NCBI GenBank assembly: GCA_902779395.1
Contig: CACZBK010000001.1
Location: forward strand, 211,066 to 275,065
Length of the DNA: 64,000 bases
Origin: an uncultured Lachnospiraceae bacterium
GTDB taxonomy: Bacteria > Bacillota > Clostridia > Lachnospirales > Lachnospiraceae
Reading direction: 5' to 3'
Numbering within the stretch: position 1 is the first letter of the stretch; the number at the start of each line of letters is the position of its first letter. Made by a program: the position numbers and the translations under genes. Shown piece after piece: positions 12,251 to 57,041 of this stretch. A model generated the notes under the pieces. It made no database searches. It was not told where the DNA came from and saw only the letters and a list, made by a program, of their open reading frames with translations.

Positions 12251-12346
12251 TTTGTTTCCTCACGTTTTCCCGTCCTTAACGAATAACCCAACCTTCCAGT
12301 AATACAATAAACGATCATCACATGAATAGAAGGCCGTAGACACAAA

Positions 12347-12381
12347 TACCACCCGGGAAAAATGCAGGGCGGTACTTTTTT
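12347..12381. terminator. Hairpin after the nfnAB-DUF1846 operon
   Basis: TACCACCC (12347-12354) pairs with GGGCGGTA (12367-12374) with one mismatch, and a run of six T follows on the plus strand. Minus-strand transcripts from the DUF1846 gene meet the same hairpin with a weaker U-rich tail (TTTGTGT). Since upstream and downstream genes are all minus-strand, the minus orientation is the functional one even though the plus tail looks stronger. Confidence 0.5.
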
Positions 12382-53224: not shown

Positions 53225-53674
53225 TTATTTTTCCTCCTCGACCACTACCTTGAGCTCGCCTGTTACCTTGGGATGGAGTTTTATCTGGACGGTATGGATA
53301 CCCGCCGTCTTTATCGCATCCTTAAGCACTATCTTTTTCTTGTCTATGCTCATCGAAAGCTGGCTCTCGGCTGCTGCCGCAATTTCCTTTGAAGTGATGG
53401 AGCCGAAGCTCTTGCCGCCCTCACCCGAGCGTATGGAAAGTTTTACTTCCTTAGTCGAAAGCTCTGCTGCAAACGCCTTTGCCTCTTCAAACTGCTCTTT
53501 GGCGATACGCTCGTCGTTCTGCTTCTTTAACTTTAAATTGTTCATATTTGAAGCAGTGGCTTCCAGGCCCTTCTTCTTACTGAGTATGAAATTACGGGCA
53601 TAGCCGTCGCTTACTTCCACTACTTCACCTGCTTTTCCAAGCGACTTTACATCTTCCGTCAATATGACTTTCAT
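53225..53674 (-). CDS. rplI: 50S ribosomal protein L9
   Basis: A 149-residue protein with the L9 N-terminal signature KVILTEDVKSLGKAGEVVEVSDGYARNF broken here into its parts: MKVILTEDVKSLGKAG, then VSDGYARNFI. A central helix and a C-terminal domain (SIRSGEGGKSFGSITSKEI) follow. Length is normal. Its ATG overlaps the gdpP stop by one base. Confidence 0.97.
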   Translation of the reverse strand: MKVILTEDVKSLGKAGEVVEVSDGYARNFILSKKKGLEATASNMNNLKLKKQNDERIAKEQFEEAKAFAAELSTKEVKLSIRSGEGGKSFGSITSKEIAAAAESQLSMSIDKKKIVLKDAIKTAGIHTVQIKLHPKVTGELKVVVEEEK

Positions 53675-55725
53675 CAGATCTCACCCTCCTGTATCATTGT
53701 ATCCAGTGTATTCTTCACAACTATCACGGCAGCCTCCGCCGTTGTATTCTTAAGCTGTGCGCCGGAGCTGTTGATGTGTCCGCCGCCGCCTAACTTTTCC
53801 ATTATTATCTGTACGTTTACCTCATCGATGGACCTGGCCGATATGAATATCTGCCCCTGGTACTCGGTCATCACGAAGCTGGCCTTTACGCCGTTTATGT
53901 TCAGAAGGTCATTTGCTGCCTGTGCGGCTACGACCGTAGGGCTCTTTAAACCTTCGGACTTACAGTAGCTTATCACATATTCCTTACGGTAAACCTCTGC
54001 ATTCCTTACTGCTTCAGCCTTCGCCATGTAATCGGCGGCATCCTCACGGAACATCTTGCGTACCCTGGTAACATCCGCGCCGTTCCTGCGAAGGAATGCT
54101 GCTGCCTCAAAGGTCCTTACGCCTGTCTTAGTAGTAAAGCTCTGTGTATCCATGACTATGCCCGAATACAGACAGTCCGCAACCACGCCCTTGAACTTGA
54201 CTCCGTTATTTATGTACTGCAGTATCTCCGATACCATCTCACAGGCGGATGACGCATTGGGCTCAACATAGGAAAGCGTTGCATTCTCTATGGTCTCCTG
54301 CCCCTGACGGTGATGATCCAGAACAACTATGGTCTTGCAGCGCTTTAACAGCTCCGGGCATTCCGTGATGGAGGGACGGTTCACATCCACCACCACCACT
54401 GCACAGTTCGCATCCGAAAGCTCCAGCGCCTGCTGGGGAGATACTATCGATCCTTCCTCATATTCGGTATGACCTTTATACAGATCCACAAGCGGCTGAA
54501 GAGAAGGCGTGATCTCATCGAGCACGATATAACAGCTCTTCTGCAGACTCTGTGCCGCAGCCTTTATACCTGCCATCGCACCGAAACTGTCCATATCACC
54601 GTTGCGGTGACCCATTACAAATATACGGTCTCTGGTGGAGATGATCTCCTCCAGCGCCTGAGCCTTGACCCTGGCCCTGACCCTTGTGGTGGTCTCCTTG
54701 GCCTGGCTCTTTCCTCCGTAGTAGCTCAAGTTATCTTTATTCTTGACAACTGCCTGATCGCCGCCGCGTCCAAGTGCAAGGTCTATGGCGTTGCGGGCGA
54801 ACTCACAGTTCTGCGCATAGGTCAGACCGCCTATACCCATACCGATAGATAAAGTAACGGAGATCTCGTTTCCTATGTTGATACCCTTAACATCTTCAAG
54901 AAGCTTGAACTTATCTTCCCTGGCCTGGTTGAGCGCGCTCTTTCTTAAGATAACGAAATACTTATCCTTTTCCATCTTGCGCACTATACCGTCCAGATCG
55001 CCTATATACTGGTTGACCTGCCTGTCGATAAAGGCTCCGAGAAGGCTTCGTCCCACATCTTCAACGCTCTGCAGGGCCTCCTCATAGTTATCGATGTAGA
55101 TATAGCCCACGGTCACGCTCTGGTTATCCAGTTCCTTAAGAGCCAGGTTAAGAGCTGTACGGTCGAAGAGATATACGGCGTACATATAGCCGTCATAGGC
55201 CGCATCCTCCTTGCCCTCCGTAAGCTTGGCCATGTCGTTTAAGGCTATGCGTTTGATCCTCGCACGGTACTCCTTTTCAAAGAATACCAGATCTATCTCC
55301 TTAACCGTATCATCATCCGGGAAAAGCTCACGCTTCATTTCCGGCATAACGGAATGGATGTTCTTATTCTGGAAACGCTCTTTTGAATCCAGCTTCTCGA
55401 ATTCCCTGTTCATCCAGAGGATCCGGCCGCTTTCATCCAGCAGCGCATGAGGCAGCTCCAGCTCTTTTAAGAGCTGCTTCTGGATCTGCCCATACTCAGT
55501 AGCAAAGCTTATAAGCTCGGCATTCATGGCCGGCCTTGCAAATACCAGCATGCAGACCATGGTAAAAACATAAACAGCCACAAATGCTGTGAGTATCACT
55601 CCCGCACGCAGATCAATAAAGTAGATCCACAGATTTACCAGCAGCAGTATCACACCCAGCAGCAAAGGAGCCTGCACATAAGCCCTGAGTTTTCCGTTTA
55701 TCTTGATCTTTATCTTTCCGGACAT
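53674..55725 (-). CDS. gdpP: c-di-AMP phosphodiesterase GdpP/YybT
   Basis: A 683-residue protein. Two membrane segments (about 18-37 and 41-62) precede a PAS-like domain, a degenerate GGDEF domain (GRGGDQAVVK in place of the active motif) and the DHH/DHHA1 phosphodiesterase (VMGHRNGDMDSFGAMAG, VVLDHHRQG, then GGGGHINSSGAQ). It degrades c-di-AMP and so affects potassium, osmotic and cell-wall homeostasis. The ATG follows a -10 box by only 8 nt, so a leaderless mRNA is predicted. Confidence 0.95.
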   Translation of the reverse strand: MSGKIKIKINGKLRAYVQAPLLLGVILLLVNLWIYFIDLRAGVILTAFVAVYVFTMVCMLVFARPAMNAELISFATEYGQIQKQLLKELELPHALLDESGRILWMNREFEKLDSKERFQNKNIHSVMPEMKRELFPDDDTVKEIDLVFFEKEYRARIKRIALNDMAKLTEGKEDAAYDGYMYAVYLFDRTALNLALKELDNQSVTVGYIYIDNYEEALQSVEDVGRSLLGAFIDRQVNQYIGDLDGIVRKMEKDKYFVILRKSALNQAREDKFKLLEDVKGINIGNEISVTLSIGMGIGGLTYAQNCEFARNAIDLALGRGGDQAVVKNKDNLSYYGGKSQAKETTTRVRARVKAQALEEIISTRDRIFVMGHRNGDMDSFGAMAGIKAAAQSLQKSCYIVLDEITPSLQPLVDLYKGHTEYEEGSIVSPQQALELSDANCAVVVVDVNRPSITECPELLKRCKTIVVLDHHRQGQETIENATLSYVEPNASSACEMVSEILQYINNGVKFKGVVADCLYSGIVMDTQSFTTKTGVRTFEAAAFLRRNGADVTRVRKMFREDAADYMAKAEAVRNAEVYRKEYVISYCKSEGLKSPTVVAAQAANDLLNINGVKASFVMTEYQGQIFISARSIDEVNVQIIMEKLGGGGHINSSGAQLKNTTAEAAVIVVKNTLDTMIQEGEI

Positions 55726-55817: not shown

Positions 55818-55846
55818 TTGATTTTGAATGCCCCTGTCTATATAAT
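55818..55846 (+). promoter_or_regulatory. Strong promoter of the candidate ncRNA
   Basis: TTGATT (55818-55823) and TATAAT (55841-55846) are exactly 17 bp apart. The predicted start is near 55853. It diverges from the gdpP promoter, with about 55 bp between the -35 boxes. Confidence 0.8.
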
Positions 55847-55852
55847 CAGCAC

Positions 55853-56312
55853 CATAAGACATTGCAGAAAATAACATTTCGAAAGGAGATCCTTATATAT
55901 AGAAACTCATTTCTGCGTCTGATTCTTCGGGGCATGACCCCATCATTGATCCAAAATTACGATCACTATTCGTGATCAGAGTCTTACAAGGTCAGTATTC
56001 ATCGGTCAAAATGATCTGAATGTATACGTGTCTGTAATTCTCCCGAACCAATTACTTTTTGATAATACGATTTTTACATTCTGTTATGTCTTATCTGTAT
56101 AAGACCAAAGCAGTCATACCTGATCGCAGGCATTTATGCACGGCAAGGATATTTCACGGACTTCCATTATGGAGACTGCCGCTGCATAATGCCGGGACAT
56201 GCCGGATCCTTCTGTTTATTTAACGACCGGTAAAATGCCTTCTCAGAGTACCCGGAATAATACTTAAATGAACCGGCATGTGATCAGGAAAGGCCGCTGA
56301 GGTCTTTTTTTG
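55853..56312 (+). ncRNA. Candidate large structured non-coding RNA
   Basis: No convincing ORF fills this stretch on either strand. It is bounded by a strong promoter and by an intrinsic terminator at 56289-56311. Perfect complementary pairs include GCAGAAA/TTTCTGC (55864, 55910), GGGG/CCCC (55929, 55938), GATCAC/GTGATC (55961, 55972), GTCTTAT/ATAAGAC (56088, 56099), GCAGTC/GACTGC (56110, 56174) and ATGCCGG/CCGGCAT (56189, 56273). AAAGGAGATCC near 55882 resembles a Shine-Dalgarno sequence but no reading frame follows. I do not recognise RNase P RNA, tmRNA, SRP RNA or 6S RNA in it. A long 5' leader for the next gene is unlikely because of the terminator and the second promoter. Confidence 0.55.
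56289..56311 (+). terminator. Terminator of the candidate ncRNA
   Basis: AAAGGCC (56289-56295) pairs with GGTCTTT (56301-56307), one G-T pair included, around the loop GCTGA, followed by seven T. It ends the 55853 transcript just before the promoter of the next gene. Confidence 0.75.
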
Positions 56313-56321
56313 TAAATTGTA

Positions 56322-56350
56322 TTTACATCTTCTTCCGTATATGATAAAAT
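56322..56350 (+). promoter_or_regulatory. Promoter of the 56403 gene
   Basis: TTTACA (56322-56327) and TAAAAT (56345-56350) are 17 bp apart. The leader would be about 45 nt and ends with GAAAGGAG before the ATG. It matches sigma-A, not the flagellar sigma-D pattern. Confidence 0.7.
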
Positions 56351-56402: not shown

Positions 56403-57041
56403 ATGAGCGTAAATGGAATTACGGGAAATGTAGCAAGCGTAGCAAGTTCTGCCGCGGCTTATAACTATTCATCGGGGAAACCCGCCTCGAGCGAACTTAA
56501 GACCTCGACGACAGACGTCAATGCAAAGTCTACCGCAGCAAGTGAGGGCGTGATCTTTGAGCACAGCACCGATGCGGCAGCCGAAAAGAAAGCAGCATCC
56601 GAGACAAAAACCTACAAGCAGGATCCCAACCTGATAAGCAAGCTTAAAGCGGATGCGGAGCAGCGCACGGCGCAGCTTCAGAACATTGTTAACCAGCTGT
56701 TATCCAAGCAGGGCAAGACCTTCGATATTGCTACCGGTTCCAATTTAAAGAGTGTCTTTGAAGGGATCGAAGTAGATGCGAAGACACAGGCCCAGGCTCA
56801 GGCCGATATAGCCGAAGACGGCTACTGGGGTGTAAAACAGACATCGGAACGTATCTTTGATTTTGCAAAAGCACTTACCGGCGGTGATCCTTCAAAAATG
56901 GAAGACATGAGAAAAGCATTTGAAAAGGGCTTTAAGCAGGCCACTCAGGCCTGGGGCGATGAGCTTCCTTCCATCAGTCAGGATACTTATGCAGCCGTCC
57001 AGAAGATGTTCGACGATTACGCTAACCAGGAACAGAACTGA
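56403..57041 (+). CDS. Small unknown Ala/Ser-rich protein
   Basis: A 212-residue protein I do not recognise by function. The N-terminus MSVNGITGNVASVASSAA has no signal peptide and is Ser/Ala/Thr-rich to about residue 75; GVIFEHSTD lies near residue 49. The C-terminal half is helical and charged, with LISKLKADAEQRTAQLQNIV and KMEDMRKAFEKGFKQATQAW. Proteins of this general shape recur in Lachnospiraceae as I recall. It has its own promoter and terminator, so it is monocistronic, and a strong AGGAG site, hinting at abundance. Confidence 0.75.
   Translation: MSVNGITGNVASVASSAAAYNYSSGKPASSELKTSTTDVNAKSTAASEGVIFEHSTDAAAEKKAASETKTYKQDPNLISKLKADAEQRTAQLQNIVNQLLSKQGKTFDIATGSNLKSVFEGIEVDAKTQAQAQADIAEDGYWGVKQTSERIFDFAKALTGGDPSKMEDMRKAFEKGFKQATQAWGDELPSISQDTYAAVQKMFDDYANQEQN

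Follow-up and report, generated by a model that had tools for sequence, protein, structure and literature searches.

The window, that is, the whole 64-kb stretch of DNA analysed here from an uncultured Lachnospiraceae bacterium, contains an interval of 677 bases without a credible open reading frame (ORF). It is flanked by gdpP (53674-55725, minus strand; GdpP domains) and by a small plus-strand gene (56403-57041) that is divergent from gdpP across the interval and matches no Pfam family. The sequence-only reading had proposed that the interval encodes a large structured non-coding RNA, with a promoter at one end and an intrinsic terminator at the other. We found the promoter motif TTGATT-N17-TATAAT, a hairpin with a U-run at the opposite end (which the terminator scan itself did not list), and a second promoter-like site after the terminator, all as described in that reading (Table 1). 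The promoter scan returned 6 promoter-like sites in 1.6 kb, as compared to 3.2 expected, and single matches are weak evidence. The longest plus-strand ORF in the interval, among those of at least 40 aa, had 54 aa and started from TTG, in agreement with the proposed lack of a coding gene. The six complementary words listed in the reading were also all present: GCAGAAA at 55864, TTTCTGC at 55910, GCAGTC at 56110, GACTGC at 56174, ATGCCGG at 56189 and 56199, and CCGGCAT at 56273.

Table 1. Features of the RNA locus, in window coordinates.
Feature	Position	Strand	Remarks
Promoter	55818..55846	+	TTGATT, 17 nt, TATAAT
RNA	55853..56312	+	about 460 nt; fold z -3.89; in 30/35 genus genomes; no Rfam match at gathering score
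P1, 5' strand, CATAAGACATTGCAGAAA	55853..55870	+	own versus cross duplex energy, 30 genomes
Conserved GTCTTAC	55981..55987	+	(G/A)TCTTA(C/T) upstream of arm 1 in 16/16 RNAs compared
P1, distal 3' strand, ATTCTGTTATGTCTTAT	56078..56094	+	own versus cross test; in predicted fold
P2, 5' strand, AAGACC	56101..56106	+	P2 regions own versus cross, 30 genomes
Stem presenting antisense element, 5' strand	56129..56145	+	predicted fold (z -3.79); region across relatives 0/20000
Arm 1, GCAAGGATATTTCACGGA	56143..56160	+	antisense to rpsF mRNA 5' end (G000:C18, about 12334-12351)
Arm 2, ATTATGG apical loop	56166..56172	+	complementary to CCATAAGG at rpsF Shine-Dalgarno site; moderate support
Stem presenting antisense element, 3' strand	56177..56193	+	predicted fold (z -3.79); region across relatives 0/20000
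Conserved CCTTCTCAGA	56238..56247	+	CTTCTCAGA exact in 14/16 RNAs compared
Terminator hairpin, intrinsic, with U-run	56286..56312	+	hairpin at 56286-56310, -10.3 kcal/mol
P2, 3' strand, GGTCTT	56301..56306	+	also part of terminator hairpin
Second promoter-like site	56322-56350		3' of terminator hairpin; promoter scan

No Rfam 15 family matched at gathering score anywhere in the 64-kb window. The interval itself gave four sub-threshold matches up to E 10, the best of which (E 0.3) was on the other strand. At 12 plus 14 further loci from relatives, three Rfam matches were obtained (Clostridiales-1, group II intron and TwoAYGGAY), none of which was taken to cover the RNA. Thus, no family reached gathering score over the RNA in the window or at the relatives' loci scanned, and the known large RNAs were rejected as candidates on these scans. 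RNase P, tmRNA, SRP and 6S RNA, whose signatures had been reported as missing, were likewise excluded, by the Rfam scans alone. No earlier description of the RNA was found among the literature matches listed, some of which were judged by title and the start of the abstract, most subscription journals lying outside the search.

The plus strand of the RNA folded with -129.4 kcal/mol, and 0 of 100 shuffles were as good. The reverse strand folds equally well (z -3.67), so that the strand cannot be told from folding energy alone. Nine single folds of the 3' domain from relatives were unremarkable (z -1.53 to +1.36). The RNA sequence outside the motifs is highly variable between relatives, which have in common a TAAGAC-like start, a ACCGGAAGGGAG-like element and an AGACC...GGTCT pair. 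We compared duplex energies of each genome's own strands (own) with those of strands combined between genomes (cross), by permutations that ignore relatedness and so overstate significance. Helix P1 scored -30.3 kcal/mol for own as compared with -24.9 for cross, with 0 of 20000 permutations as good in 30 genomes, its 5' segments having been placed by pattern (at least that of G007 wrongly). Helix P2, of the type AGACCGG:CCGGTCT, encloses the 3' domain and gave -40.7 versus -32.0 (0/20000; 30 genomes). Own was no better than the cross median in 4/30 genomes for P1 and in 5/30 for P2. The stem region that presents the antisense element described below showed the same tendency (-17.7 versus -14.6, 0/20000). 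Pairing in relatives is supported for all three, and on this comparison helices P1 and P2 are conserved. The GCAGAAA/TTTCTGC pairing named in that reading did not hold up (own -22.7, cross -23.7 kcal/mol; 18703/20000 permutations as good, 24 genomes); its 5' strand instead pairs with the more distal partner of P1. A switch between this proximal pairing and the distal helix, by eye attractive in several genomes, was dropped, own pairs being no better than cross.

Promoter-like starts also recur in relatives: an exact TATAAT was present in 17/30 RNAs and TTG 17 nt before the -10 box in 23/30, as read by eye, with -10 boxes taken from a preset list that yielded only TTTTTT in G003, G013 and G025 and a misplaced box in G007. 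In alignments of G020 and G031 with the window, the -35 and -10 boxes are kept although the spacer differs. With P1, P2 and the promoter-like start recurring and no Rfam family matching, the interpretation as a structured non-coding RNA, and not a degraded gene, is supported.

The first clue to a partner of this RNA was a 28-base match (93%) in a related genome (G007), which lies antisense in the leader of an rpsF-ssb-rpsR operon, as read from the ORFs. We found that a segment of 13-18 nt in the RNA, called arm 1 here, is antisense to the extreme 5' end of the rpsF-ssb-rpsR mRNA (S6, SSB and S18) of the same genome. In the window's genome the match comprises 18 Watson-Crick pairs, or a run of 19 with one G-U, and the RNA is encoded away from its target, on contig C1 as compared to C18 for rpsF. 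This genome has exactly two copies of the arm 1 14-mer GGATATTTCACGGA, one in the RNA and one in the rpsF leader. Across the 35 genomes of the genus, the word was matched exactly 31 times, in 18 genomes, of which 13 had two matches each; the reversed control gave 0. Fifteen matches lie antisense in rpsF leaders, 12 in the related RNA and 4 elsewhere, apparently in genes (G002 twice, G010, G031); in eleven genomes the word stands once in the leader and once in the RNA. The word search was blind to orientation, and its 12 hits in the RNA all share one orientation relative to the landmarks of the RNA.

A total of 34 rpsF leaders were found in the genus, some lineages having altered 5' ends. In 43 of 49 leaders, a GTGA anchor lies 8 nt past the best -10-like rpsF box, from which the start position was estimated; arm 1 therefore covers about the first transcript bases. 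By the position of the box, the pairing is thus placed at the extreme mRNA 5' end, as for RNAs of the FasX type. The predicted unpaired fraction was slightly higher for arm 1 (0.47) than for the remainder of the RNA (0.40); strong single-strandedness was rejected as a proof, this value being only slightly above average.

The RNA was present in 30 of the 35 genus genomes, this genome included. It was not found in G001, G009 and G024, which have the leader only, or in G012, which has neither part, and in G031 it is truncated by a contig end, so that no pair was obtained. A DNA search of 60 related genomes had given syntenic diverged copies in G020 and G031, with 74% and 72% identity over the 5' part. 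Sixteen of the 30 RNAs were found via the shared word itself, which leans the set towards matching, and 14 via synteny with a GH18-type gene, arm 1 being mostly chosen with the leader in view. A loose pattern, TTCAC-N82-112-CTTCTCAGA, was uninformative, with 25 matches (11 of them known RNAs) versus 41 in the reversed control; it had no match in G001, G009, G012, G024 or G031.

The RNA lies directly upstream of the GH18-type gene, on the same strand, in 26/30 genus genomes, and the downstream gene differs in the other four (G000, G020, G007 and G030); the same downstream gene in all relatives, as expected for a leader, was thus not observed. A U-run like that of the window is mostly missing in the relatives read. 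Given this and the position of the RNA in 26/30 genomes, read-through into the GH18 gene is possible. The argument of the sequence-only reading against a leader probably holds at the window locus, with its own promoter, terminator hairpin and second promoter-like site, and is less secure for the relatives. In G028, only about 130-150 bases separate the divergent gdpP and the small gene (L019), leaving no room for the RNA, which is found on another contig upstream of a GH18 gene (L063); the RNA gene therefore differs in place between genomes. The GH18 protein itself (L117:913-2772, minus strand, and orthologues) has an SH3_3 domain and a hydrophobic N-terminal stretch and occurs in 32/35 genus genomes. 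A Clostridiales-1 RNA (RF01699, 116 bits) lies directly downstream of the RNA on the same strand in G007 (L049:1147-1322, minus strand), giving two structured RNAs in a row, and a TwoAYGGAY RNA (RF01731, 91.9 bits) lies about 2 kb upstream of the GH18 gene in the isolate NK4A179 (L174:932-1095, plus strand).

A scan with the GH18 protein extended the comparison to other genera, giving 80 named loci, with upstream sequences labelled Acetatifactor, Blautia, Lachnoclostridium, Roseburia and isolate COE1; assignment to other genera is by these labels and by low GH18 identity. The upstream sequences have the same layout, mostly with ATCAC(A/G)G...CTTTTGG replacing the genus word. Twenty-five of the 80 loci were taken on, chosen partly for showing the motif; of these, L231 lacked an S6 match and five belonged to the genus set counted above. 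Of the remaining 19 pairs, labelled other Lachnospiraceae, 17 fitted the motif used, and two (L214 and L196) did not and were left out of the total of 47 genomes; L214 has a 13-nt antisense run despite not fitting the motif pattern.

Differences between the leaders are mirrored in the RNAs. One A is lost in the leaders of G006, G010, G018, G022 and G032, and the same loss is seen in their RNAs (5/5), which were searched with the shortened word or, for G022, read upstream of the GH18 gene. Leaders with CUGUGAAAUAUUCAUG (G008, G016, G019, G023) occur together with RNAs containing CAUGGAUAUUUCACAG, and G005, G011, G015 and G017 each have their own matching leader/RNA variants. A prediction set before the sequences were fetched held for G002, in which leader UCCGUGAAUUAUCC and RNA GGAUGAUUCACGGA form 15 contiguous pairs with 2 G-U. 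For G014 and G033 it held for the core only (13 contiguous pairs with 1 G-U), and the predicted pairing beyond the core was absent from the fetched sequences. In other genera, GUGAUGAAU, GUGAUAUA or a similar sequence occupies the equivalent leader position and is complementary to the RNA.

A quantitative analysis of arm 1 was carried out with permutations that do not keep relatedness and with a GTGA/TCAC anchor chosen by the analyst. In a fixed register, the 390 cells of 30 genus genomes comprised 368 Watson-Crick, 16 G-U, 1 A-C and 5 other combinations, the G-U cells always having G in the RNA and U in the leader. The contiguous run was longer for own than for cross pairs (15.2 versus 10.9; 0/20000 permutations, 30 genomes). 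With one genome per leader class (9), the difference persisted for the run (14.4 versus 8.6, 1/200000) and for the energy (-26.3 versus -17.3, 5/200000). Own energy did not surpass the median obtained with leaders of other classes in G002, G013 and G021 (3/30), and own run no longer than cross in G011, G014 and G033 (3/30). The 17 pairs from other genera gave -18.4 kcal/mol for own and -12.5 for cross (0/20000); the strand test is weak there, with 191 Watson-Crick, 11 G-U, 7 A-C and 12 other among 221 cells. Over 34 distinct leader/RNA pairs (47 genomes), a 15-pair helix was standard in 90.4% of 510 cells, as compared with an average of 71.2% in shuffles (0/500 as high) and at most 51.6% with slid partners. 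Eleven of the 15 base pairs have changed on both sides, the four invariant pairs being the anchor, and the inner 10 pairs were 97.4% standard. Two of five measures, the count of double changes and that of further pair types, were unexceptional in comparison with shuffles (77 and 28 of 500). Complementarity to the target mRNA is thus kept by compensatory change, as expected of a trans-acting base-pairing RNA. The capacity of arm 1 to pair with the leader is the best-supported feature of the RNA, and these comparisons of sequence are strong evidence that a structured RNA gene has co-evolved with one mRNA, rpsF-ssb-rpsR.

Just past arm 1 lies a small hairpin (arm 2), whose loop, TTATGG here and TTTTGG in 31/47 RNAs, is complementary to CCATAAGG or CCAAAAGG, located at the Shine-Dalgarno (SD) site of rpsF. 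The loop fitted its own leader variant in 33/47 (A 30/39, T 2/6, G 1/2) and failed in 14/47, 13 without a match and one with the wrong variant; it follows the leader variant in G000 and G029 (TTATGG) and in G015 (TTCTGG). Own energies were better than cross over the whole set (-13.3 versus -12.0, 0/20000) and within the genus (-11.3 versus -10.4, 74/20000). These data give moderate support to a second, weaker contact, between arm 2 and CCANAAGG at the SD site.

Among nine leader folds examined, the SD is paired with UCCUU-type bases, located downstream of the arm 1 core site, in four (G015, L244, L251, L253) and with the extreme 5' end, where arm 1 would bind, in two (G034, G017); neither pairing occurs in the other three (G000, G016, G018). 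When the first 18 leader bases were blocked in the model, the SD became more open in 29/49 leaders and less open in 3/49. An Rfam scan of leaders L244, L077 and L087 gave no match up to E 1; Rfam may hold no model of the S6:S18 motif.

The best explanation, to which we give a probability of about 0.8, is that the locus encodes a trans-acting base-pairing RNA that clamps the rpsF leader. According to this model, an RNA of about 460 nt would have two domains, of which the 5' domain is enclosed by P1 and the 3' domain by P2, the latter displaying the 13-18 nt antisense arm 1 beside the arm 2 hairpin. Arm 1 would pair in trans with the very start of the rpsF-ssb-rpsR mRNA, and arm 2 would pair with CCANAAGG, covering the upstream half of the SD. 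The two arms would then clamp the leader hairpin from either side, at the expected site of the S6:S18 autoregulatory motif, and displace cis helices holding the SD, so that translation and/or stability of S6, SSB and S18 would be set by the RNA. The 5' domain could sense a signal. We infer transcription of the RNA, its pairing in vivo and an effect on expression from the sequences. Repression, with arm 2 covering the upstream SD half, and activation, by a sealed 5' end as for FasX on ska or by a freed SD, appear about equally likely, and we lean slightly to repression. More tentatively, and with somewhat less than even expectation, we suggest that this RNA, spread over the Lachnospiraceae and made up of a 5' domain that senses and a 3' domain with two antisense parts, adds a trans layer above S6:S18 autoregulation, clamping the rpsF-ssb-rpsR 5' end and SD so that the supply of S6, S18 and SSB follows a second signal.

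The shared word could also be read as a DNA operator, bound by one transcription factor at the start of the rpsF promoter and inside the RNA locus, without RNA pairing. The word lies at about +1 of rpsF, a classic operator position, and 11 genomes have a single copy in the leader and a single one in the RNA. However, the 12 word-found RNA copies all point the same way relative to the RNA landmarks, the RNA copy lies within a hairpin region whose pairing also covaries, changes of the word between lineages are compensatory at 11/15 positions, and the neighbouring loop is complementary to the leader in 33/47 as well. G-U outweighs A-C by 16 to 1 in the genus, though by 11 to 7 in other genera. 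We consider an operator very improbable. Control in the reverse direction, with all or part of the rpsF leader binding and controlling the RNA or the gene downstream of the RNA, would suit the 26/30 genomes with the RNA upstream of the GH18 gene, as that gene's leader. This fits poorly with G000, G020, G007 and G030, which keep the rpsF pairing despite a different downstream gene, and with the terminator hairpin and new promoter-like site that part the RNA from the next gene in the window; we regard it as improbable, if a little less so than the operator.

A closer alternative is that the RNA acts at the 5' end only, in a manner known for sRNAs, arm 1 sealing the rpsF mRNA against 5'-end-dependent decay or freeing the SD, and arm 2 being a mere hairpin. 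That arm 1 pairing begins at about +1, that support for arm 2 is moderate, and that blocking 18 leader bases opens the SD in 29/49 leaders and closes it in 3 in the model are all consistent with this, whereas arm 2 tracks the leader variant in G000, G029 and G015, and within the genus 74/20000 permutations matched its energies. We think this alternative rather unlikely, though distinctly more credible than the other two, and prefer the clamping of the leader by both arms.

Bacterial ribosomal-protein operons are thought to be controlled by their own products acting on cis leaders. If the preferred reading is true, a dedicated trans RNA co-evolving with the start of a ribosomal-protein mRNA would be a different layer of control in abundant gut bacteria. 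In Escherichia coli, the SD lies within the structure of the rpsF_leader and the S6:S18 complex represses rpsF (PMC4647458). The predicted target of the RNA is this same mRNA leader; rpsF_leader, however, is a cis element bound by protein, whereas the present RNA has a gene of its own and would act on the leader in trans. The FasX sRNA of Streptococcus pyogenes (PMC4691137) pairs at the 5' end of ska mRNA, stabilising it, and at the cpa ribosome-binding site (RBS), repressing it. It thus resembles the present RNA as a trans-encoded RNA pairing at an mRNA 5' end or RBS, but in the present case a ribosomal-protein operon is the predicted target, with a pairing that co-varies over many species; the sequence relation was judged by the Rfam scan alone. 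RNAIII of Staphylococcus aureus likewise is a regulatory RNA making loop contacts to mRNA, but acts on several targets (PMC4691137), as compared to the one identified here so far. GOLLD, ROOL and OLE are large ornate bacterial non-coding RNAs (PMC12286853). None of them was among the four Rfam matches up to E 10 in the interval or reached gathering score in the window. The three are not known to be antisense regulators. The RNA would be a base-pairing regulatory RNA in kind, set apart by its apparently dedicated ribosomal-protein target, its size and the depth of its intermolecular covariation. This covariation allows the partner to be predicted in additional genomes and makes the RNA directly testable by compensatory mutation. 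The finding, made in DNA of a rumen bacterium, points to a previously undescribed RNA that would regulate ribosome production in gut bacteria; the link to rpsF was beyond the view of the sequence-only reading, and the RNA is richer than first described.

Apart from the two arms, the genus shows strong conservation of CCTTCTCAGA and GTCTTAC, which may be candidate contacts to another RNA or a protein. The RNA of G032 (L103, about 1295-1410 and 1515-1550) has additional sequence flanking arm 1 on either side and contains a repeated element of the GGGGAGCCCGCGCC type; a similar element lies near the RNA in G018. The extra sequence in G032 resembles a small repeat that was inserted without disrupting arm 1.
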